Positions 32,726-47,254 of a stretch of DNA of 64,000 bases are shown here, piece after piece. Source of the DNA: Gammaproteobacteria bacterium (GTDB lineage: Bacteria; Pseudomonadota; Gammaproteobacteria; JAUZRS01); assembly GCA_030949385.1 (NCBI GenBank), contig JAUZSP010000001.1, positions 124,001 to 188,000 on the forward strand, given 5' to 3'. Numbering within the stretch: the stretch's first letter is position 1; each line of letters opens with the position of its first letter. The position numbers were made by a program, and so were the translations under genes. The notes under the pieces were generated by a model. That model was not told the origin of the DNA. It was given only the letters and a program-made list of their open reading frames with translations, and made no database searches.

Positions 32726-33073
32726 ATGAGCAGTCAAGGTCGCCAAGGCATTTTGTCGCTGACAATTAAAGAGAAAAGTGCGCTCTACTCGGCTTACATG
32801 CCCTTTGTGAAAAACGGCGGTCTGTTTGTGCCGACGGATAAGTTTTACAATTTAGGCGATGAGGTCTTTATGCTTTTGACCCTAATGGATAACAAAGAAC
32901 GTCTACCTGTGGCGGGTAAAATTGTTTGGGTCACCCCAGTGGGTGCGCAGGGTAATAAAACGGCGGGCATCGGGGTAAAATTCAGCGATCAGGACAATGG
33001 TTCAACCCGAGATAAAATCGAGACCTATTTGGCCGGTGCTTTGGGCGCAGATCGCCCAACTCATACCCTATAA
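32726..33073 (+). CDS. pilZ: PilZ-domain protein of the type IV pilus group
   Basis: The 115-residue protein has a compact PilZ fold (FVKNGGLFVPTDK, LGDEVFMLLTLMD, VAGKIVWVTPVG, GIGVKFS) but lacks the RXXXR c-di-GMP-binding start, as does the stand-alone PilZ needed for type IV pilus assembly. Placement after holB is the standard context for that protein. Its last bases overlap the end of the convergent YiiX-like gene. Confidence 0.9.
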   Translation: MSSQGRQGILSLTIKEKSALYSAYMPFVKNGGLFVPTDKFYNLGDEVFMLLTLMDNKERLPVAGKIVWVTPVGAQGNKTAGIGVKFSDQDNGSTRDKIETYLAGALGADRPTHTL

Positions 33074-34006
33074 ACCGATTTTTAGTGCTTTTAGCTTGGC
33101 TAAGATGGCGAAGCGATGGCTGCCTTCTTGCTCGGATTTCTGCCGGTAGTGATGGCTTAGTGTTCTTGATCTGGTTGGTTTGAGCAGTACTTCTTCCAGT
33201 GAACTTTCTGAATCATTATAAATAACCCCTTCCTCGTTCCAAGGCAGTTTCCGATAGAGTGCCAAATCATCAAACTCAAAGACCGGGTATTTGATGATGT
33301 CAAAGTAAGGTGAATAATCGAAGTCTCTGGGAGTGAAGAGGCGAAAATTGCGTCGATAGAATTTGATATGTCCCTGTTCATTGCGCAGCACGGGTAGCAC
33401 AGGGAAACGGACGCTGGCAAAAGCTTGTGCAATCAGCGCTGAACAGACGGTGCGAGTGGGGGTACCGATGTGATGTGAAAACAGGCTGGAGCGATAGCGA
33501 CGTGGCAAAATATTGTAAGGAAATAGAAAACGCGCCAGATCCAGCAGCTGGCGAACGTCGTAATCCAGCCCGAGATTGGCGATCAGATGGTTGACCACAT
33601 ATTGTGAATCTTGGCGAGAGAGCCCTTTAGGCCGACAAATACGCAGGTGTTCGTTTTCATAGCTGTTTAGCGGTCGAATGACCGTGCCTTCCCCCAGCAA
33701 CGCTTCAATAATCAACTGCTCATCCGGTTTGGCGGGGTAGTGTTTTTCAATTAAGCCTCTCATTTCGGGTGCATCAATGTCGTGTAAACGGCCAATGTAG
33801 AGTGCTGAGTGCGTCCAAGAGCTTAAGGTAATGCATTTGATGACTTCGCTGACACGGCTGCGCCCTTCAACCAGCAGCACATCCCCTGGACGAATCTCGT
33901 AACTGAGGCGTTGATAATCGGACAGAGGCGGCTGTGTGTTGGGTTTTTCATCATTGAGCCATGATATGGCACGATTCCAGATCCATGTTTTGATATTAAA
34001 GCTCAT
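33068..34006 (-). CDS. YiiX/YebB-like cysteine hydrolase (permuted NlpC/P60 fold)
   Basis: The 312-residue protein has the circularly permuted papain-like arrangement: RPGDVLLVEGRS, then a histidine H66 in SSWTHSALYIG, an acidic residue E101 in IIEALLGEGTV, and the cysteine C188 in RTVCSALIAQAF. These positions fit a His-Glu-Cys centre of YiiX-like lipid or peptidoglycan hydrolases. No signal peptide is seen. The start at 34006 has GGGAG 8 bases upstream. The substrate is unknown. Its upstream region shares a 22-base element with that of the beta-propeller lipoprotein at 63.5 kb. Confidence 0.8.
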   Translation of the reverse strand: MSFNIKTWIWNRAISWLNDEKPNTQPPLSDYQRLSYEIRPGDVLLVEGRSRVSEVIKCITLSSWTHSALYIGRLHDIDAPEMRGLIEKHYPAKPDEQLIIEALLGEGTVIRPLNSYENEHLRICRPKGLSRQDSQYVVNHLIANLGLDYDVRQLLDLARFLFPYNILPRRYRSSLFSHHIGTPTRTVCSALIAQAFASVRFPVLPVLRNEQGHIKFYRRNFRLFTPRDFDYSPYFDIIKYPVFEFDDLALYRKLPWNEEGVIYNDSESSLEEVLLKPTRSRTLSHHYRQKSEQEGSHRFAILAKLKALKIGL

Positions 34007-35599: not shown

Positions 35600-36061
35600 A
35601 TGCACTGTCCCTTCTGTTCTGCCACCCGCACCAAAGTCATCGATTCTCGTGACGCTCATGAAGGCTCACAAGTTCGACGGCGACGACAGTGTTTGGGCTG
35701 TGGGGAACGTTTCACTACCTACGAACAGGCCGACATTGCACTGCCACGCATCATTAAAAACAACAACGAACGCCAAAATTTCTCCGAAAAAAAATTGCAA
35801 GCGGGTCTAAGTCTGGCCTTGCAGAAACGCCCCGTTTCTACTGAGCAACTGGATAACGCCATTTTAAACATTCGTCATCGTCTTTTAACGTGTGGTCAAC
35901 GTGAAGTAAATTCACGACTGTTAGGAGAGTGGGTGATGGAAGAGCTGCGTCAGCTTGATCATGTGGCCTACATTCGTTTTGCTTCCGTTTATAAAAGTTA
36001 CGAAGATCTGCAAGCATTCCGTGAAGCATTGGATCGCCTCGACCGAGAACCCTCACCATGA
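35600..36061 (+). CDS. nrdR: Ribonucleotide reductase regulator NrdR
   Basis: A nucleotide-sensing repressor of ribonucleotide reductase genes. The 153 residues have an N-terminal zinc ribbon ([17 protein letters not shown], then [15 protein letters not shown]) and an ATP-cone ([19 protein letters not shown] onward). The end overlaps the ribD start (ATGA). Confidence 0.96.
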
Positions 36062-37170
36062 TTTTATTTGATCATCAGATGATGAATCGTGCCGTTCAAC
36101 TGGCCAATCGAGGGCGTTACACAACGCACCCCAATCCTCGGGTTGGTTGTGTGATTGCCTACGGCGAGCAGATCGTCGGTGAAGGCTGGCACCAGCGAGC
36201 CGGAAAACCACACGCCGAAGTGTACGCTCTGCGCCAAGCCACTGAAAAAGCAAAAGGCGCTACCGCTTACGTCACATTAGAGCCGTGCTCTCATTTTGGT
36301 AAAACTCCGCCGTGTGCTGACGCACTGATCACAGCGGGTATTTCACGGCTGGTTGTTGCCATGCAAGATCCCAATCCCTTGGTGGCGGGCAAGGGATTGC
36401 AACGTCTGTCCGCAGCAGGCATCGAGGTCGAAGTAGGGCTGTTGCAGTCGGAAGCCGAGGCGTTGAACCCCGGCTTTATCAAACGGATGCAACAAAACAG
36501 ACCCTTTGTGCGTCTCAAATTAGCCATGAGTCTCGATGGTCGCACCGCGATGGCCAGTGGTGAAAGTCAGTGGATCACCGGTTCTGATTCTCGTGCTGAC
36601 GTGCATCGTTTGCGCGCACGCAGCGATGCCATTCTCACCGGCATCGGTACGGTGTTGGCCGATGACCCTTCCTTGAACGTGCGGCTCAGCCCGTCAGATT
36701 TAGAGGGTTTAGAAGGGATCAACGTACCGCAGCCTTTGAGAGTCGTTTTAGACTCTTACTTGTCTATTTCGCCACAGGCTAAAATGTTCGGCCTAGCGGG
36801 TAAAACGCTGCTGATTGGCCACACCAGCACGGCTGAAAAAAGAGCAACACTCATACAAGAGGGTGTCGATGTTGAAATAATAGGTCAGCAGCAGGGCAGG
36901 GTGAATCTCAACGAAGTCATGTCGTTATTGGCTCAACGGGAAATCAATGAACTGTTGATCGAAGCAGGACCAACCCTAGCCGGTGCAGCACTTCAAGCGG
37001 GCATCGTTGATGAGATCGTGCTGTATATGGCACCGCACGTTATGGGCAGTGAGGCTCGCGGACTGTTTAACCTTCCGGGTCTGGATAAAATGGCCGATCG
37101 CATTGATTTAAAAATCAGTGAAATTCGACAGGTGGGTGAAGATGTTCGTCTGACTTTCAGTCTCACCTGA
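36058..37170 (+). CDS. ribD: Bifunctional riboflavin deaminase/reductase RibD
   Basis: RibD carries out the second and third steps of riboflavin synthesis. In the 370 residues the deaminase domain comes first with [10 protein letters not shown] and [16 protein letters not shown] (zinc ligands), then the reductase domain from about residue 150 ([34 protein letters not shown]). The next riboflavin gene, ribE, is 6.3 kb downstream because a cassette is inserted in between. Confidence 0.96.
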
Positions 37171-37456: not shown

Positions 37457-38968
37457 ATGGCGGCAACGGGCACAGGAGTTGATCAAAGTCGTATCAACTT
37501 ATTTTCATTCAACGGTAAAATGAAAATTTTACACCTCTCTTGGTTTGCATTCTTTCTTAGTTTCATGGTTTGGTTTAACTTTGCTCCGTTGATGGCTTCC
37601 ATTCGAGAGACCTTTGGCCTTTCAGATCAAGAGGTGAAACTGCTGCTTATTTTAAATGTGGCGCTGACCATTCCAGCACGCATTATTGTTGGCATGTTAG
37701 TGGATAAACATGGCCCAAAAATTACCTTTTCTGTCTTGTTGGCTCTTTCCAGTGTGGTCTGTTTTCTCTTCGCATCGGCGCAAAGTTATACTGAACTGGC
37801 AACGTACCGTTTTCTACTTGGTTTTGTTGGGGCTGGTTTTGTCATTGGTATTCGTTTGGTTTCTGAGTGGTTTCCAGCCAAACAGGTCGGCACTGCTGAA
37901 GGCATCTACGGTGGTTGGGGTAATTTTGGTTCCGCTGGCGCGGCGATTTTATTACCCACTTTGGCGCTGATGTTTGGGGGTGATGAGGGCTGGCGCTGGG
38001 CGGTGGCCACCACTGGGGTCTTGGCTTTACTCTTTTCTTTTGTTTTTTATTTTTCGGTAAGCAACAACCCAAAAGGAACGACTTACTTTCGACCTAAAAA
38101 CTTAGGTGCAATGGAGGTGAGCAGCAAAGGTGACTTTTATTTTTATTGTTTTATGACAGCTCCCCTTTATTTGGCACTGGCAACCCTGAGTTGGAAAATC
38201 TCTCCTGCCAACTTGAATATTTTCAGTCACTCTTTGACCTACACCATCTACACAATGCTGCTGCTGCTTTATATTTATCAAGTTTTGCAGATTTATCGCA
38301 TTAACAAAGCCCTTTTTGCTGTCAATGCACGCCCTCCAGCAGAAATTCATCGCTATAAATTTCGTCAAGTGGCGGCGTTAAACCTCTCTTATATGGTTAC
38401 TTTTGGTTCTGAATTGGCTGTGATCTCTATGTTACCGCTCTTTTTCTTTGATGTTTTTAAGGAAAGTGCAGATTTAAGTATTGCTCAAGCGGCTTTAATT
38501 GCGTCTATTTTTGCGGCTTTAAATTTGGTTATGCGTCCAGCAGGCGGTTATCTTAGTGACAAATACGGGCGTAAAATAGTGTTAAGCATTACTTTAGGCG
38601 GGCTTTCATTCGGTTATTTTTTAATGGGTCAAATTGATCAAAGTTGGACTGTCTCAATGGCCGTCGGTGCAATGATCATTACCTCGTTATTTGTTAATGC
38701 AGGTAATGGAGCGGTGTTTGCCGTAGTGCCTTTGGTAAAGAGGCGTTTGACGGGACAAATTGCGGGTATGACCGGTGCCTTTGGTAATGTGGGTGGCGTG
38801 GCTTTTCTTACTGTATTGTCTTTTGTTTCTTCACAGCTCTTTTTCCTTACCATTTCAGCCGTGTCCTTTGTGGTTTTTTTGTTGGTCTTGTTTATATTGA
38901 AAGAGCCAAAAGGGTTTATGTATGAGCAAAATGACGATGGCAGCATTGAGAAAATTGAACTCCATTAA
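37457..38968 (+). CDS. narK: Nitrate/nitrite transporter of the NarK/NNP family
   Basis: The 503-residue major facilitator protein has about 12 membrane segments, starting with LSWFAFFLSFMVWFNFAPL, and the family motifs RIIVGMLVDKHGPK, the nitrate signature GGWGNFGSAGAAILLP in the fifth segment, RPAGGYLSDKYGR, and the second signature GAFGNVGGVAFL in the eleventh. No nitrate or nitrite reductase gene is in the window. It is followed after 11 bases by a PP2C/kinase fusion; a similar transporter-kinase pairing is known next to assimilatory nirBD genes in pseudomonads. Confidence 0.9.
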   Translation: MAATGTGVDQSRINLFSFNGKMKILHLSWFAFFLSFMVWFNFAPLMASIRETFGLSDQEVKLLLILNVALTIPARIIVGMLVDKHGPKITFSVLLALSSVVCFLFASAQSYTELATYRFLLGFVGAGFVIGIRLVSEWFPAKQVGTAEGIYGGWGNFGSAGAAILLPTLALMFGGDEGWRWAVATTGVLALLFSFVFYFSVSNNPKGTTYFRPKNLGAMEVSSKGDFYFYCFMTAPLYLALATLSWKISPANLNIFSHSLTYTIYTMLLLLYIYQVLQIYRINKALFAVNARPPAEIHRYKFRQVAALNLSYMVTFGSELAVISMLPLFFFDVFKESADLSIAQAALIASIFAALNLVMRPAGGYLSDKYGRKIVLSITLGGLSFGYFLMGQIDQSWTVSMAVGAMIITSLFVNAGNGAVFAVVPLVKRRLTGQIAGMTGAFGNVGGVAFLTVLSFVSSQLFFLTISAVSFVVFLLVLFILKEPKGFMYEQNDDGSIEKIELH

Positions 38969-38979
38969 GGCGCTTATTT

Positions 38980-40692
38980 ATGAGTAACCAACTGATTGTC
39001 GAAGTAGGGCAATGTACACAAGCAGGCCTTAAAGAGCAGAACGAAGATTGCTGTGGTATTCGTGTTCCTGATGACAATATGGAGCTGATTCATAAAGGCA
39101 TTGTGGCTGTCACTGCTGATGGAGTGGGTTCCAGTGAAGCGGGCAAGGAAGCCAGTGAACACTGTGTACGTGGATTTATCAGCGATTATCTAAGTACCCC
39201 GATGTCTTGGGGAGTGAAAACTGCCGGTGAGCGCATCATTCGTTCACTCAATTCTTGGCTCTACAGCCAAGGCCAAAGCCGTTATGCCTCGGAGCTGAGT
39301 CTGGCTTCAACGTTTGCTGGGCTGATTTTAAAATCGACTACAGCACACCTGTTTCATGTCGGTGATTCGCGTATCTATCTCATTCGGCAAGGCACCATTA
39401 AACAGATGACCAAAGATCACCATTTGGTTATTGATCGCAATAAGGCGTTTCTTTCTCGTGCGATGGGGGGTGAGCATGAGGTGCAGTTTGACCATGCCAG
39501 CCTGCCCATTGAAATCAATGACCGATTTTTGCTCAGCAGCGATGGGGTTCATGAATTTTTGCCAGATGAGCAGCTGTTGGCCTTTGCTCTTGCTTATGAA
39601 CCAGAGGTGGCGGCAGAAAAAATAGTTGAAGCGGCTCTCGATGCGGGCAGTAACGACAATTTAACCTGTCAAATTTTACGGGTCACTCAACTGCCCAATC
39701 AAGATGAGGATGAGTATTATCGCCAATTGACTTCACTGCCCTTTCCACCCGCATTAGGCATTGGCACCGTATTAGACGGTTATAAAATCATCAAAGAGCT
39801 GCACACCAGCAGCACCATCCAAGTCTATTTGGCCGAAGACAATGACAATGGGGAGAGGGTGGTAATCAAAACCCCGTCGGTCAATTTTGAGGATGATCCC
39901 GCGTATATTGACCGTTTTTTCCATGAGGTCTGGGTGGGGCGACGCATCAGTGACCCAAACGTTTTGAAAGTGCATCAACTGGAGCGTAAACGCAGCTGTC
40001 TTTATTACGTTACCGAATTTATTGAAGGGCAATCGTTGGCGCAGTGGATTTTAGACAACCCTGAGCCAGATTTAAATCAGATCCGTGACATAAACGCACA
40101 AATCGTTAAAGGTCTGCGCGCGTTCCAACGGCGTGAAATGGTGCATCAAGACATCAAACCTGAAAACATCATGATTGACAAACACGACCGCATCAAAATC
40201 ATTGATTTTGGTTCTACTCAAGTGGCCGGATTGCAAGAGATCTACACACCACTGCAAAAGCAGGGCAGTCACCTGCAAGGCACGGCCAATTACATTGCCC
40301 CAGAACTGTTTGAGGGTTTTGAAGGCAGTTTCCGCAGTGATATGTATTCACTGGGGGTGACCCTCTACGAGATGCTCAGCGGTGGCAAGTTTCCCTACGG
40401 GAAATTGGAAAAAGCACAGGCGCATAAAAATTACGACTACCGTTCAGTGCGTCAGTACAACGCTAATGTACCCATCTGGATGGACGGTGCGATTCAAAAA
40501 GCGGTACACCCCGATCGCGCCCATCGTTACGACAGTTTTTCTGAATTTCAGCACGACCTTTCCACACCCAACCCCGCTTTTATGAAAACCAGCCTGCCCT
40601 TGATAGAACGTCATCCACTGGCCTTTTGGCGCAGCGTATCAGCGATTTTATTATTGACCAATTTTTTTCTGTTGGCGCTGTTATTCAGGTAG
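38980..40692 (+). CDS. PP2C phosphatase-Ser/Thr kinase fusion, membrane anchored
   Basis: The 570 residues combine two opposing activities. N-terminal PP2C domain: NED (21-23), DGVGSSEAG (47-55), GDSR (128-131), SDGV (187-190), NDN (225-227) form the metal-binding set. C-terminal Hanks-type kinase: K297 in VVIKTP, E316, catalytic HQDIKPEN (389-396) and DFG (409-411), then TANYIAPE. The usual HRD arginine is a glutamine, so activation-loop control is probably absent. A single membrane segment ends the protein (about 548-569). Co-transcribed with narK; its substrate may be the transporter or the convergent TPR protein, which is inference. Ends overlap the TPR gene by 12 bases. Confidence 0.9.
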   Translation: MSNQLIVEVGQCTQAGLKEQNEDCCGIRVPDDNMELIHKGIVAVTADGVGSSEAGKEASEHCVRGFISDYLSTPMSWGVKTAGERIIRSLNSWLYSQGQSRYASELSLASTFAGLILKSTTAHLFHVGDSRIYLIRQGTIKQMTKDHHLVIDRNKAFLSRAMGGEHEVQFDHASLPIEINDRFLLSSDGVHEFLPDEQLLAFALAYEPEVAAEKIVEAALDAGSNDNLTCQILRVTQLPNQDEDEYYRQLTSLPFPPALGIGTVLDGYKIIKELHTSSTIQVYLAEDNDNGERVVIKTPSVNFEDDPAYIDRFFHEVWVGRRISDPNVLKVHQLERKRSCLYYVTEFIEGQSLAQWILDNPEPDLNQIRDINAQIVKGLRAFQRREMVHQDIKPENIMIDKHDRIKIIDFGSTQVAGLQEIYTPLQKQGSHLQGTANYIAPELFEGFEGSFRSDMYSLGVTLYEMLSGGKFPYGKLEKAQAHKNYDYRSVRQYNANVPIWMDGAIQKAVHPDRAHRYDSFSEFQHDLSTPNPAFMKTSLPLIERHPLAFWRSVSAILLLTNFFLLALLFR

Positions 40693-43206
40693 CAGTTGTG
40701 GCGGTAACCACGTCTGCACAAAATTTGTCGCCTCCTCCTTAGAAAGGTGATGGTTCATAAAAAAGAGAAAATCATCCAACGCCATCTGCCGGTTCTCTTT
40801 GTGCCTATTCACCAAACTTCTAAAATAGCTGAGCATGCTCTGACGAGTTTGCAGGCTCTCTTTACCTAAAGATGCAAACCAAATGGTCAGCGCTTGCTTC
40901 TGATACGAAGCAGCGCTGCTGTACAGTTCCATTTCATCGTGCAACAGGGCTAAATGATTTAAGGTTGCGGCCACCATCGGGCTTTCAGAGCCGGAAATTG
41001 ATTTTTGTAGCGCCAACGTACGTTTGAATAAGCTCGCGGACTTGTCGTACTCTTTGGTTGATTGGCATAACAGAGCGTAATTGATCAGAGTGGAAGCAAC
41101 GCTCATATTGCCACTTTTTCCAAATACTTCTTCTCGGATTACTAACGCATCTTCGCATAAGGGCAGGGCTTTTTTATAGTCGCCCATGAGCCGATACAAA
41201 ACAGAGAGATTGTGCATGCTTCTGGCTAAAGTGCGACTGCTTTTACAAAACAACGCTTGCCGAATGGCCAGTGATCGTTTACCCAGTGGCAGGGCTTTTT
41301 TGTAGTCGCCCAACAACATGTAAAGCTCGGTTAATTTACTCAGAACCGATGCCACAGAGGGAGAATTAGCCCCAAAGACACGTTCGCGAATGCTCAAAGC
41401 ACGTTGATAGAGGGGCAAGGCGTGTTCGTATTTGCCGCCCAATTTATACAACATGGCCAGTTTGACCAACGCAGCTGGCACAGAACGATCCTTTTCACCC
41501 AGCGTCTCTTCCAGATTAGCGAGCATCAACCGATAGGTTTCCAAATTCTTTTCCAAATCGTGCGGGAAGGTTTCTCCCGAGCCATTTTCATACAAAAATT
41601 CCAATTTTTCTCGCAACGCCAATACCGTCAATGAATCTTCTGGCAGACGCTTTTCATCAATATTAAGGATACGTTCGTACAGTGGCAACGCTTCATCGTA
41701 TTCGAACATTGACTCCAACTGACGTGCCATCTTCTCCAAAATGTTGCGCACGGTGTTGTCATTTTTACCGTAATAACGTTCGCTGAACTTCAAGGCACGT
41801 TCGTATAAAACCAGTGCTTCATCGGGTTTATTAGACTCTAGGTAGAGTTCGGCCAGATCATTTAACAGCCGATCTTTTGCCAATCCATCATGGCTCAGAG
41901 CCGCTTCATAAACGGCACCGTATTGTTCATACAGTGCCACCGCTCTGTCCGATTCGGCCATAAACTCATACAGTGCCACCAGCTTTCTTAAAATAGGGTG
42001 CAGTTGGCTGCTGTCATTGTCTAAGGCTTTTTCCATCAAATCCAATGAGCGTTCATACAGGGGCAACGCTTCATCTAAATTGCCCAAAACCTCATACGCT
42101 TCGGCTAAACGGTATAGGAGTTCAGCTTGATGTTGCAGGGTGGTTGAACTCATTGAGGCTGAATAATGTTTCCCCGCCGTCTGTTGATAAACCCGTAGAT
42201 ACTGTTCACAACGGGGTTCATACAGCACCGTATGATCATCAAAAACTTGACCCTCACGGTATTTTTCAAAGACCTTATCTCTAAAATCAACGCAACGGCG
42301 ATGTAAATTTAATTGTTTACTGGGTTCATGCTGAGCATACAACTCAGCTAAGGCCATTGCCTTCTGGTGCAACCTGGCCAAATCGGTCAATAGGTTTTCA
42401 ACGGTGTGTTGCTCTCTATTGAATTGGTTTGCAGCAAAGGTGAAGGACTGTTCGTAAAAGGAGAGCATCTTGTCCAGTTCACCATTACGTTCATATAGCC
42501 GAGCTAAATCACACAGCAGTTCTCCAATGACCGGTGGAGGCTGGGTTTGATCGACCGCTTGATAACGATGCAACGCATCGCTGTATAACCTAATGGCCTC
42601 ATCAATATTGTCCGCTTCGCCATAGAGTTTTGCCAAACAGAGCTCGGTTTCGGCCAGCGCCAATGGCTCTGTTTTCACACTCTGTTTTCTAAGCTTCAAA
42701 ACCCGCTCAAACAGAGGCAATGCCTTAACCGGCTGCTCCATTAACTGATGCAACAGCGCCAAATCATTTAATCCTGCTTCCACTTCTGGGCTGTTGTGCT
42801 CAAATAACTGCTCTTGTAAAGCAAGCGCCTTCTCCAACAAGGGACGAGCTTTTGAGTGCTGTTTCAACACTTTTAGAGCTCTGGCGGTCTGATCTAAATA
42901 CACCAACAAGAGGATTTTATTTTTTTCAGAGGGCACTCGGTTCAGTAGGCTGTCAATTAAATTGAGTGCTTGTTGAGCGTGCTGGGCACGTTCAAAATGA
43001 GCACCTTGTCTCTCTTTTAGCTCGCTTTGCAAGGCCGCTGAACTGGCAGCAAGGTGGATCGAAGCTTCAAATTCAAAGGTCAATTTGTCAATCTGTTGCA
43101 GCGTATTTCGGGCGCTCTCTTCATCCGTGCTCTGTGCTTTTGCGAGACGTGAGAGAGCTTGTTTTAACTCACCTTCAGCGATTAACCTTTCCACTGAGTC
43201 ATGCAT
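40681..43206 (-). CDS. Large tetratricopeptide-repeat protein
   Basis: About 841 residues made almost wholly of kinesin-light-chain-like TPR units of about 42 residues, with the recurring core ALPLYERALxIRE. At least a dozen repeats can be counted by eye, best preserved between residues 370 and 790. No signal peptide or membrane segment. ATG 43206 (MHDSVERLIAEGELKQAL) is chosen; the frame stays open to a TTG at 43257. Such proteins serve as scaffolds; convergent overlap with the kinase gene suggests, but does not prove, a shared function. Confidence 0.75.
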   Translation of the reverse strand: MHDSVERLIAEGELKQALSRLAKAQSTDEESARNTLQQIDKLTFEFEASIHLAASSAALQSELKERQGAHFERAQHAQQALNLIDSLLNRVPSEKNKILLLVYLDQTARALKVLKQHSKARPLLEKALALQEQLFEHNSPEVEAGLNDLALLHQLMEQPVKALPLFERVLKLRKQSVKTEPLALAETELCLAKLYGEADNIDEAIRLYSDALHRYQAVDQTQPPPVIGELLCDLARLYERNGELDKMLSFYEQSFTFAANQFNREQHTVENLLTDLARLHQKAMALAELYAQHEPSKQLNLHRRCVDFRDKVFEKYREGQVFDDHTVLYEPRCEQYLRVYQQTAGKHYSASMSSTTLQHQAELLYRLAEAYEVLGNLDEALPLYERSLDLMEKALDNDSSQLHPILRKLVALYEFMAESDRAVALYEQYGAVYEAALSHDGLAKDRLLNDLAELYLESNKPDEALVLYERALKFSERYYGKNDNTVRNILEKMARQLESMFEYDEALPLYERILNIDEKRLPEDSLTVLALREKLEFLYENGSGETFPHDLEKNLETYRLMLANLEETLGEKDRSVPAALVKLAMLYKLGGKYEHALPLYQRALSIRERVFGANSPSVASVLSKLTELYMLLGDYKKALPLGKRSLAIRQALFCKSSRTLARSMHNLSVLYRLMGDYKKALPLCEDALVIREEVFGKSGNMSVASTLINYALLCQSTKEYDKSASLFKRTLALQKSISGSESPMVAATLNHLALLHDEMELYSSAASYQKQALTIWFASLGKESLQTRQSMLSYFRSLVNRHKENRQMALDDFLFFMNHHLSKEEATNFVQTWLPPQLLPE

Positions 43207-43352: not shown

Positions 43353-43493
43353 TAGTATATTAAGTCTTTATATTCGTAACTATAAAAGACCAAATAGAGC
43401 AACGATAAACACTGGGTTCTCAGGCTCTGCACGTTTATGATGCGCCTCACGATTTTTTTATTAACTCAGTTCAATCGTTCAATTGGGGACACT

Positions 43494-44150
43494 ATGTTTA
43501 CAGGTATTATTGAAGCGGTCGGCAGCATTAAAGCATTGGAGTCCCGAGGGGGCGATGTGCGGCTGCACATTCAGAGTGGAAAACTGGATCTCAGCGATGT
43601 GGCTTTGGGAGACAGCATCGCCACCAATGGGGTGTGCCTAACGGTGGTTGCTCTGCCAGGTGACGGTTATGCCGCTGATGTTTCATTGGAAACCCTCTCT
43701 TTGACTACCTTAGGCAAGCTGCAAAACGGCAGCCCCGTTAATCTGGAAAAAGCCCTCACCCTCAGCACTCGTCTTGGTGGCCACATGGTCAGCGGTCATG
43801 TGGATGGTTTGGGCAACGTGGTGGAGCGGGTGGACTCGGCGCGCTCAGTGAAATTCATTATCGAAGCGCCGCAAGAGTTGGCCAAATACATTGTGCATAA
43901 AGGCTCAATCACTGTGGACGGCATCAGCCTGACGGTGAACGCCATCGACAATAACCGCTTTGAGCTCAACATCGTGCCACACACGGTGCAAGAGACGGTA
44001 ATCGGCCAATACCAAGTTGGTACAGAGGTGAATTTAGAGGTGGATCTGATTGCCCGTTATCTGGAACGATTGCTCTGGGGTGCGGAGCAAGAAAAGAAAT
44101 CAAACGGCATCACTGAGCGATTATTGACAGAAAATGGCTTTATGAAGTGA
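43494..44150 (+). CDS. ribE: Riboflavin synthase alpha chain
   Basis: Catalyses dismutation of two lumazines to riboflavin. From ATG 43494 (GGGGA 6 bases upstream) the product is 218 residues with the two homologous lumazine-binding halves, starting MFTGIIEAVGSIKALES and around residue 98 GGHMVSGHVDGLGNV, each with the conserved TNGVCLTV and VDGISLTV motif. An in-frame ATG at 43437 gives an unlikely lead. Known as ribC in E. coli nomenclature. Confidence 0.95.
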   Translation: MFTGIIEAVGSIKALESRGGDVRLHIQSGKLDLSDVALGDSIATNGVCLTVVALPGDGYAADVSLETLSLTTLGKLQNGSPVNLEKALTLSTRLGGHMVSGHVDGLGNVVERVDSARSVKFIIEAPQELAKYIVHKGSITVDGISLTVNAIDNNRFELNIVPHTVQETVIGQYQVGTEVNLEVDLIARYLERLLWGAEQEKKSNGITERLLTENGFMK

Positions 44151-46293: not shown

Positions 46294-47254
46294 ATGTCAA
46301 GTGAATTTTCTCTGATTGAGCACTATTTCAAACGACGGGCGGGGCGTACTGAACATGTGCCGCTGGGCATCGGTGACGATTGCGCCTTACTTAACGTTCC
46401 CGCTGGCCATCAACTGGCGGTCTCTATAGATACCCTCGCTGCGGGGGTGCATTTTCCTCACCACACCTCAGCGTTTGATGTTGGTCATAAATCCTTAGCC
46501 GTTGGTCTCAGCGACCTTGCTGCGATGGGGGCAGAGCCCGCTTGGGCAACCCTTTCACTCTCTCTTCCTGAGCTTGATCCTCATTGGCTAGAGGCCTTCA
46601 GTGAGGGGTTTTTTCAACTGGCGGAGCGCCACAAGCTGACCTTGGTGGGTGGTGACACCGTCAAAGCCCCTCTGAGCATCACGGTACAAGTGCATGGTTT
46701 TATTCCTGTTGGGGCGGCCTTAAGACGCGATGGTGCGCAACATAGGGGATCTGATCTGTGTTTCTGGGAGAGTAGGGGACGGTGCTCTGGGGTTAAAAAT
46801 GGCCTTGGGTGAGTTAGTCGCTGTAAAAAATCCGCTGCAAAAACTCAACCGCCCCGAAGCTCAAGTGGCCTTGGGTCTGGCTTTGCGCGGCAAAGCTCAC
46901 AGTTGCATTGACATCTCTGACGGTTTGGCTGCCGATTTAGGCCATGTTCTCACCGCCAGCAACGTAGGCGCTCTGTTGCAGCTTGATAAACTGCCCCTTT
47001 CTACCGAATTGCGTCAACAGCCTCCTGAAATTCAAGAAAAAATGGCGCTGTTTGGCGGTGATGATTATGAGTTGTGTTTTACTCTGTCGGCCAAGGCGTT
47101 GCATGAGTTACAAGCGAAAGCCGATTTGCCCAAAATCAGTGTCATTGGCCAAATTGAAGCTGAATTGGGTCTGCGTCTGCAACGTCCACAGGGCATTGAA
47201 TCACTGTTATTTACAGGTTTTGACCATTTTGACCGAGAACAAAAAGATGAGTAA
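46294..47254 (+). CDS. thiL: Thiamine-monophosphate kinase, frame broken by one base
   Basis: ThiL makes thiamine diphosphate. The first frame (MSSEFSLIEHYFKRRAGRTE, LGIGDDCALL, LAVGLSDLAAMGAEP, LVGGDTVKAPLSITVQVHGF) runs to RRDGAQ; the second resumes with IGDLICVSGRVGDGALGLKM, then CIDISDGLAADLGH and FGGDDYELCFTL. The switch lies at about 46738-46748, where one base is in excess (near CAACATAGGGG). The repaired product is about 319 residues, a normal ThiL with all ATP and Mg motifs. A sequencing error is the simplest view. Confidence 0.88.

Follow-up and report, generated by a model that had tools for sequence, protein, structure and literature searches.

In a 64,000-nucleotide stretch of a gammaproteobacterial genome (contig JAUZSP010000001.1; hereafter the window), a narK gene encoding a nitrate/nitrite transporter is followed by a gene in which a PP2C phosphatase is fused to a Hanks-type Ser/Thr kinase. 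We propose that this pair probably serves to control nitrate/nitrite uptake after translation, as a dedicated module in which the kinase/phosphatase reversibly sets transporter activity. The two genes are likely co-transcribed, since only 11 nt separate the narK stop from the kinase start. A sequence-only reading of this DNA had described the same layout, with narK, an intact fusion ending in a membrane helix and a convergent TPR gene, and had suggested that the kinase controls nitrate uptake with the TPR protein as scaffold. The layout is as it described and the kinase is indeed tied to the transporter. The scaffold is not retained.

Linkage was surveyed in 369 gammaproteobacterial genomes, about a third of which (123) carry the kinase. 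Among the 88 genomes with a NarK of the long clade, 84 also carry it, and long narK lies directly upstream of the kinase in 74 of 89 cases. One genome counted as kinase-less does carry a truncated kinase behind narK, at the edge of a contig (L291). Upstream sequence was available for 132 kinase genes, and 115 of these have a transporter within 1.6 kb: 78 a long NarK, 10 a short NarK and 27 an FNT channel. The median gap between transporter and kinase is 52 bp. Given some 3000 genes per genome, such adjacency cannot be accidental. These arrangements recur on annotated plasmids, where PGAP names the protein 'bifunctional protein-serine/threonine kinase/phosphatase'. The pairing of narK with the kinase is genuine and of long standing, and hundreds of genomes have a transporter-kinase pair of this kind. 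As an outcome that would refute its proposal, the sequence-only reading had named a kinase occurring mostly without narK; most copies stand instead beside NarK or another transporter of nitrogen anions. Viral spread of the kinase was considered and rejected, as viral contigs gave partial kinase-domain matches only (21-35% identity).

The constant partner of the kinase is the transporter, while the accompanying enzyme varies. nirB is found within a few kb of 47 of the 78 long-NarK loci and is missing near 23 of the 27 FNT-linked kinases. Cyanase stands near 14 of the 27 FNT loci but near none of the 88 NarK loci. The FNT channels are 60-85% identical across proteobacterial classes and are followed by the kinase and often by cyanase (L042, L043, L045, L049, L050, L052, L296 and others). 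Judged by gene content, these FNT-kinase-cyanase loci are probable cyanate/nitrite uptake modules with a kinase clade of their own. This pattern bears on the alternative that nitrite/nitrate reductase or its regulators are the target of the kinase, with the transporter link reflecting a shared operon only. The frequency of nirB at long-NarK loci agrees with that alternative. So do the joint changes of PA1783 (nasA), PA1782 (ppkB) and nirB in P. aeruginosa, where ppkB is co-regulated with nasA and nirB (PMC6954232), and two loci (L266, L048) in which the kinase adjoins a reductase without NarK. We nonetheless regard a reductase target as improbable, given the FNT-linked kinases that lack nirB, kinase clades that track transporter class, and the window pair itself, which stands alone with nirBD and nitrate reductase elsewhere in the genome.

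The location of these reductase genes corrects the sequence-only reading, which had stated that no reductase is present. This is true at the locus, where the pair sits between ribD and ribE. Targeted searches, on which our statements about this genome rest, located a nirB-nirD-molybdopterin oxidoreductase-DmsBC-like cluster on another contig (L290:6616-13358, contig C3). The molybdopterin oxidoreductase is best matched by formate dehydrogenase alpha and NasC, though neither match reaches its cut-off. The cluster also encodes a protein that fuses 4Fe-4S and DmsC parts and looks like a membrane-anchored, DmsBC-like subunit for electron transfer; the putative nitrate reductase is of assimilatory type. 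Because of this cluster, nitrate assimilation is probable in this genome, and the lone pair is consistent with a role in the uptake step. The window pair lies outside any assimilatory reductase cluster; such a context is frequent in the family (the nirB count above) and not defining.

The kinases divide by transporter. On a tree of 163 kinase sequences, 138 of them with a known transporter class, the three classes require 2 changes, the minimum. A smaller tree computed with a mixture model again requires 2, whereas shuffled labels need at least 20. In that tree the FNT-linked and the short-NarK-linked kinases are each set off by a fully supported branch. Class-specific clades are what a dedicated kinase-transporter relation would predict, and long co-inheritance in an operon would also produce them. 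Distances between NarK and kinase correlate with r = 0.40, a value that is uninformative without a species tree. The moderate correlation, the occurrence of the pair on plasmids and its divergence as a unit could be taken to mean that it is a mobile accessory operon, merely co-inherited, whose proteins have no regulatory link. We consider this very improbable, as the kinase is found with transporters of three classes and two unrelated folds (MFS and FNT), a separate kinase clade belonging to each class, and the active sites of the fusion are kept intact.

The fusion protein scores above the Pfam cut-offs for both halves (PP2C_2/PP2C and Pkinase). The complete PP2C metal set noted from the sequence alone (D47, D188, D226) is conserved, together with K297, E316, D391 and D409 of the kinase, in at least 160 of 163 relatives. 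The Hanks-type set comprises K297, E316, D391, N396, D409 and A440-E442 (APE). The GxGxxG loop has no match in the fusion, where the P-loop reads LHTSSTIQVYLA; such a loop is not essential in all kinases, and its glycines are also missing from most relatives in the long-NarK and FNT clades. The HQD in place of HRD was likewise correctly noted. Across the 163 relatives this position is Q in 104 and R in 49, and it is always R in the clade linked to short NarKs, so alignment places HQD as a trait of the family and no oddity of the window protein. The AlphaFold2 model has a PP2C fold, a bilobal kinase and the membrane helix 546-569 (mean predicted local distance difference test score 90, predicted template modelling score 0.83), the last agreeing with the anchor proposed earlier. 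Foldseek matches the kinase half of the model to Stk1/PknB and the phosphatase half to tPphA, PppA and PstP. The fusion reaches 172 bits against the 450-bit cut-off of the PASTA-kinase profile NF033483 and is also under the NCBIfam Stp1 cut-off; a domain-profile search found no PASTA domain in it.

In the control we propose, the membrane-tethered fusion would be located beside NarK, where its kinase domain would add phosphate to the transporter and its PP2C domain would remove it. Alternatively, the phosphate may be placed on the fusion itself and change its contact with the transporter. Uptake would be turned down at nitrogen sufficiency or when nitrite builds up, and would later be restored. 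Both the signal and the direction of the effect are inferred, as is the transporter's role as substrate. A broader proposal is more tentative, though we think it a serious possibility: the PP2C-kinase family may switch the import of inorganic nitrogen anions in general and be dedicated to that task, serving three transporter classes with a kinase clade for each and acting in NarK through a conserved cytoplasmic C-terminal hairpin.

The window NarK exceeds the NCBIfam TIGR00886 cut-off (326.2 versus 311.7 bits), and its AlphaFold2 model has 14 membrane helices. Two central helices (224-248 and 258-282 in the model) are missing from short NarKs in an alignment of 102 NarKs. This insert was rejected as a kinase dock, since kinase linkage also occurs in short NarKs, which lack the insert, and the insert is present in unlinked NarKs. 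The C-terminal tail is conserved among kinase-linked NarKs and is predicted, with moderate AlphaFold2 confidence, to form a beta-hairpin that may be a candidate contact for the kinase. The hairpin is degenerate in a genus without the kinase (L292, L293), but this is one independent event only, and a reading of the hairpin as a kinase-dependent element was set aside. A search for a conserved Ser/Thr, suggested from the sequence alone, did yield one in the tail: Ser/Thr 496 is invariant in the first 75 kinase-linked NarKs and lost in the genus without kinase. As a universal phosphosite it fails in a wider sample, being neither general among linked NarKs nor confined to them, and position 496 is now read as the turn of the modelled hairpin. 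NarKs with Glu, Asn or Arg at this position are at loci L373, L374, L375, L385, L386 and L070, and genome G679 has a second, unlinked NarK (L372) that retains the tail Thr. A threonine in the FNT tail was set aside as a site because unlinked FNTs have the same threonine. Upstream of narK, a search for leader RNA returned no Rfam match. At one further locus (L046:5620-8793) a 1057-amino-acid open reading frame includes a NarK-homologous stretch and is followed by the kinase gene; this suggests a NarK fused to another domain or to a second transporter, or merely an over-long frame.

Several observations weigh against transporter control as we propose it. Two genomes of one genus (G211, G312) have a long NarK and truly no kinase, so a long NarK can exist without one. 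Of the 132 kinase genes, 17 have neither NarK nor FNT nearby, and some of these have genes for nitrite or nitrate reductase, an ABC transporter or an ammonium transporter beside them. No phosphosite was identified on NarK: the best candidate, Ser/Thr 496, gives way to E, R or N in 7 NarKs that are linked to a kinase and have intact tails, and several unlinked NarKs retain it. Segregation by class does not by itself prove the substrate, and gene adjacency fits a substrate or a sensor role of the transporter alike. In the latter case the transporter would be a transceptor, with the kinase/phosphatase as its output, acting on cytoplasmic nitrogen-assimilation regulators or enzymes according to carrier flux. 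The membrane anchor and the class-specific pairing suit such a sensor-kinase pair equally well, as does the failure to find a site on the transporter. We think it unlikely, although less so than a reductase target: the transporter is retained across loci whose linked enzyme is nirB, cyanase or none at all, which makes a shared enzyme target unlikely.

Two of the kinases without NarK or FNT have other transporters as neighbours. One adjoins an ABC transporter with a confirmed ATPase and putative nitrate specificity (L162:4533-8427), the other an Amt ammonium transporter (L199:404-4196). These loci extend the nitrogen-transporter link.

The TPR gene is an unrelated neighbour with no part in the system. 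Its product resembles the TPRs of kinesin light chains. A three-component system with this protein as scaffold was suggested by the convergent adjacency and by the overlap of 12 bp between the kinase gene and the end of the TPR gene at 40681 (start codon ATG 43206 or TTG 43257), and the two genes are neighbours in the sister species too. The overlap is present in the window as described; in the sister species it is a 27-bp gap. The TPR gene occurs in 2 of the 369 genomes, both of this genus, and in none of the 29 genomes whose NarKs are closest to that of the window, and no further TPR copy adjoins a kinase among the kinase loci surveyed. The sequence-only reading had named absence of this linkage in other genomes as counting against it, and that is what we found. 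As the genes are convergent, TPR and kinase are not co-transcribed, and the TPR gene has the 93% DNA identity of the rib genes versus 81-84% for the pair. A scaffold role is refuted as a general feature, and we give it next to no credence here. At its N-terminus the TPR protein also weakly matches EAD11, an effector-associated domain (PF19964, E 8e-4, below cut-off).

These identities come from a DNA comparison with one sister species. It gives 81-84% for narK and the kinase, compared with 90% for the left flank as far as ribD and 93% for the right flank with the TPR gene. The step on the right side falls at the kinase/TPR junction. On this comparison narK and the kinase diverge as one unit. 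Their G+C content (0.425 and 0.476) is also lower than that of the rib genes (0.51-0.54). Both genes have their nearest relatives (NarKs at 68-83% identity, kinases at 68-77%) in another class of the phylum, where the two genes adjoin and nirB is usually divergent from narK. The simplest reading of these sequence data is acquisition or exchange of the two genes together, without a reductase. In the sister assembly a contig break cuts the kinase gene, and an in-frame TAG close to a contig end is either real or an assembly error.

The window pair belongs to the nasA-ppkB arrangement described in Pseudomonas, in keeping with the earlier remark that such a pairing is known in pseudomonads. In Pseudomonas sp. 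UW4 the cluster is nasST-nasA-ppkB-nasDEC-cobA, and phosphorylation of the transporter was already suggested there, with reference to plants and yeast, whose nitrate transporters are under kinase control (PMC3596284). Both arrangements have a NarK-family transporter gene directly upstream of, and co-oriented with, a Ser/Thr kinase gene. They differ in that the window pair is alone inside a riboflavin cluster, and the likeness is one of arrangement and not of an alignment with PpkB. In the openly accessible literature, subscription papers being outside the search, we found no functional study of the kinase. Compared with the papers found, the new element is that the family extends to FNT/cyanase and short-NarK loci, whose kinases form separate clades. 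The FNT/cyanase-linked kinases (for example on Azospirillum, Acinetobacter and Sulfitobacter plasmids) have the same PP2C-kinase-membrane-helix architecture, with 38-44% identity over 97% of the length, and also directly follow a nitrogen-anion transporter. There the transporter is an FNT channel rather than NarK, the enzyme is cyanase, and the kinases form a separate clade. With the PASTA kinases PknB/Stk1 and the phosphatases PstP, tPphA and PppA the window protein shares the kinase and PP2C folds. Unlike these PASTA kinases and stand-alone PP2C proteins, it joins both in one chain, lacks PASTA domains, and has its anchor at the very C-terminus, a glycine-poor P-loop and HQD.

Nitrate transporters are phosphorylated on Ser/Thr by kinases in plants (NRT2.1, Ser501 and Ser28) and yeast (Ynt1-Npr1). 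NRT2.1 is of the same transporter superfamily as NarK, and phosphorylation of its C-terminal Ser501 inactivates it (PMC10944928). Yeast Ynt1 is controlled by Npr1, as cited in the UW4 paper (PMC3596284). These plant and yeast kinases are general and unlinked to transporter genes, and no homologous site was found here.

Features of the narK-kinase locus are collected in the table. nrdR and ribD precede narK, and ribE, ribBA, ribH and nusB follow the TPR gene.

Table 1. Coordinates of narK, the kinase gene and their neighbours in the window.
Feature	Position	Strand	Remarks
ribD, left flank of the inserted pair	36058..37170	+	90% DNA identity to sister species
narK, nitrate/nitrite MFS (NNP) transporter, 503 amino acids, long form	37457..38968	+	TIGR00886 and 14-helix model
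NarK residues 224-282, two additional membrane helices between transmembrane helices 6 and 7	38126..38302	+	
NarK C-terminal tail, residues 486-502	38912..38962	+	Predicted beta-hairpin, turn at conserved DG
PP2C phosphatase/Hanks-type Ser/Thr kinase fusion (ppkB-like), 570 amino acids	38980..40692	+	
PP2C domain, residues 1-237	38980..39690	+	D47, D188, D226; PDB matches tPphA, PppA, PstP
Kinase domain, residues 265-529	39772..40566	+	K297, E316, HQD 389-391, N396, DFG 409-411
C-terminal membrane helix, residues 546-569	40615..40686	+	Conserved PLxERxPxxFW motif just before
TPR (kinesin-light-chain-like) gene, neighbour only	40681..43206	-	Alternative TTG start 43257
ribE (riboflavin synthase), right flank	43437..44150	+	93% DNA identity to sister species

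Elsewhere in the window, thiL (thiamine-monophosphate kinase) is split between frames 46294-46812 and 46730-47254, which overlap. A single frame of 315 amino acids (L040:1375-2322) encodes it in the sister species, and the split is a frameshift or a sequencing error. A gene for a Peptidase_C92 (YiiX-like) permuted papain-like amidase (33068-34006, minus strand) adjoins glyA.

If the kinase sets transporter activity, this would explain how nitrate/nitrite uptake can be halted more quickly than through transcription, and bacteria would join the organisms with nutrient transporters under kinase control. The class-by-class pairing raises the question of whether each kinase acts on its own transporter alone. 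Should the family prove to be a general switch, the entry of nitrate, nitrite and cyanate into bacteria would be under reversible Ser/Thr phosphorylation, in parallel to plants and yeast.

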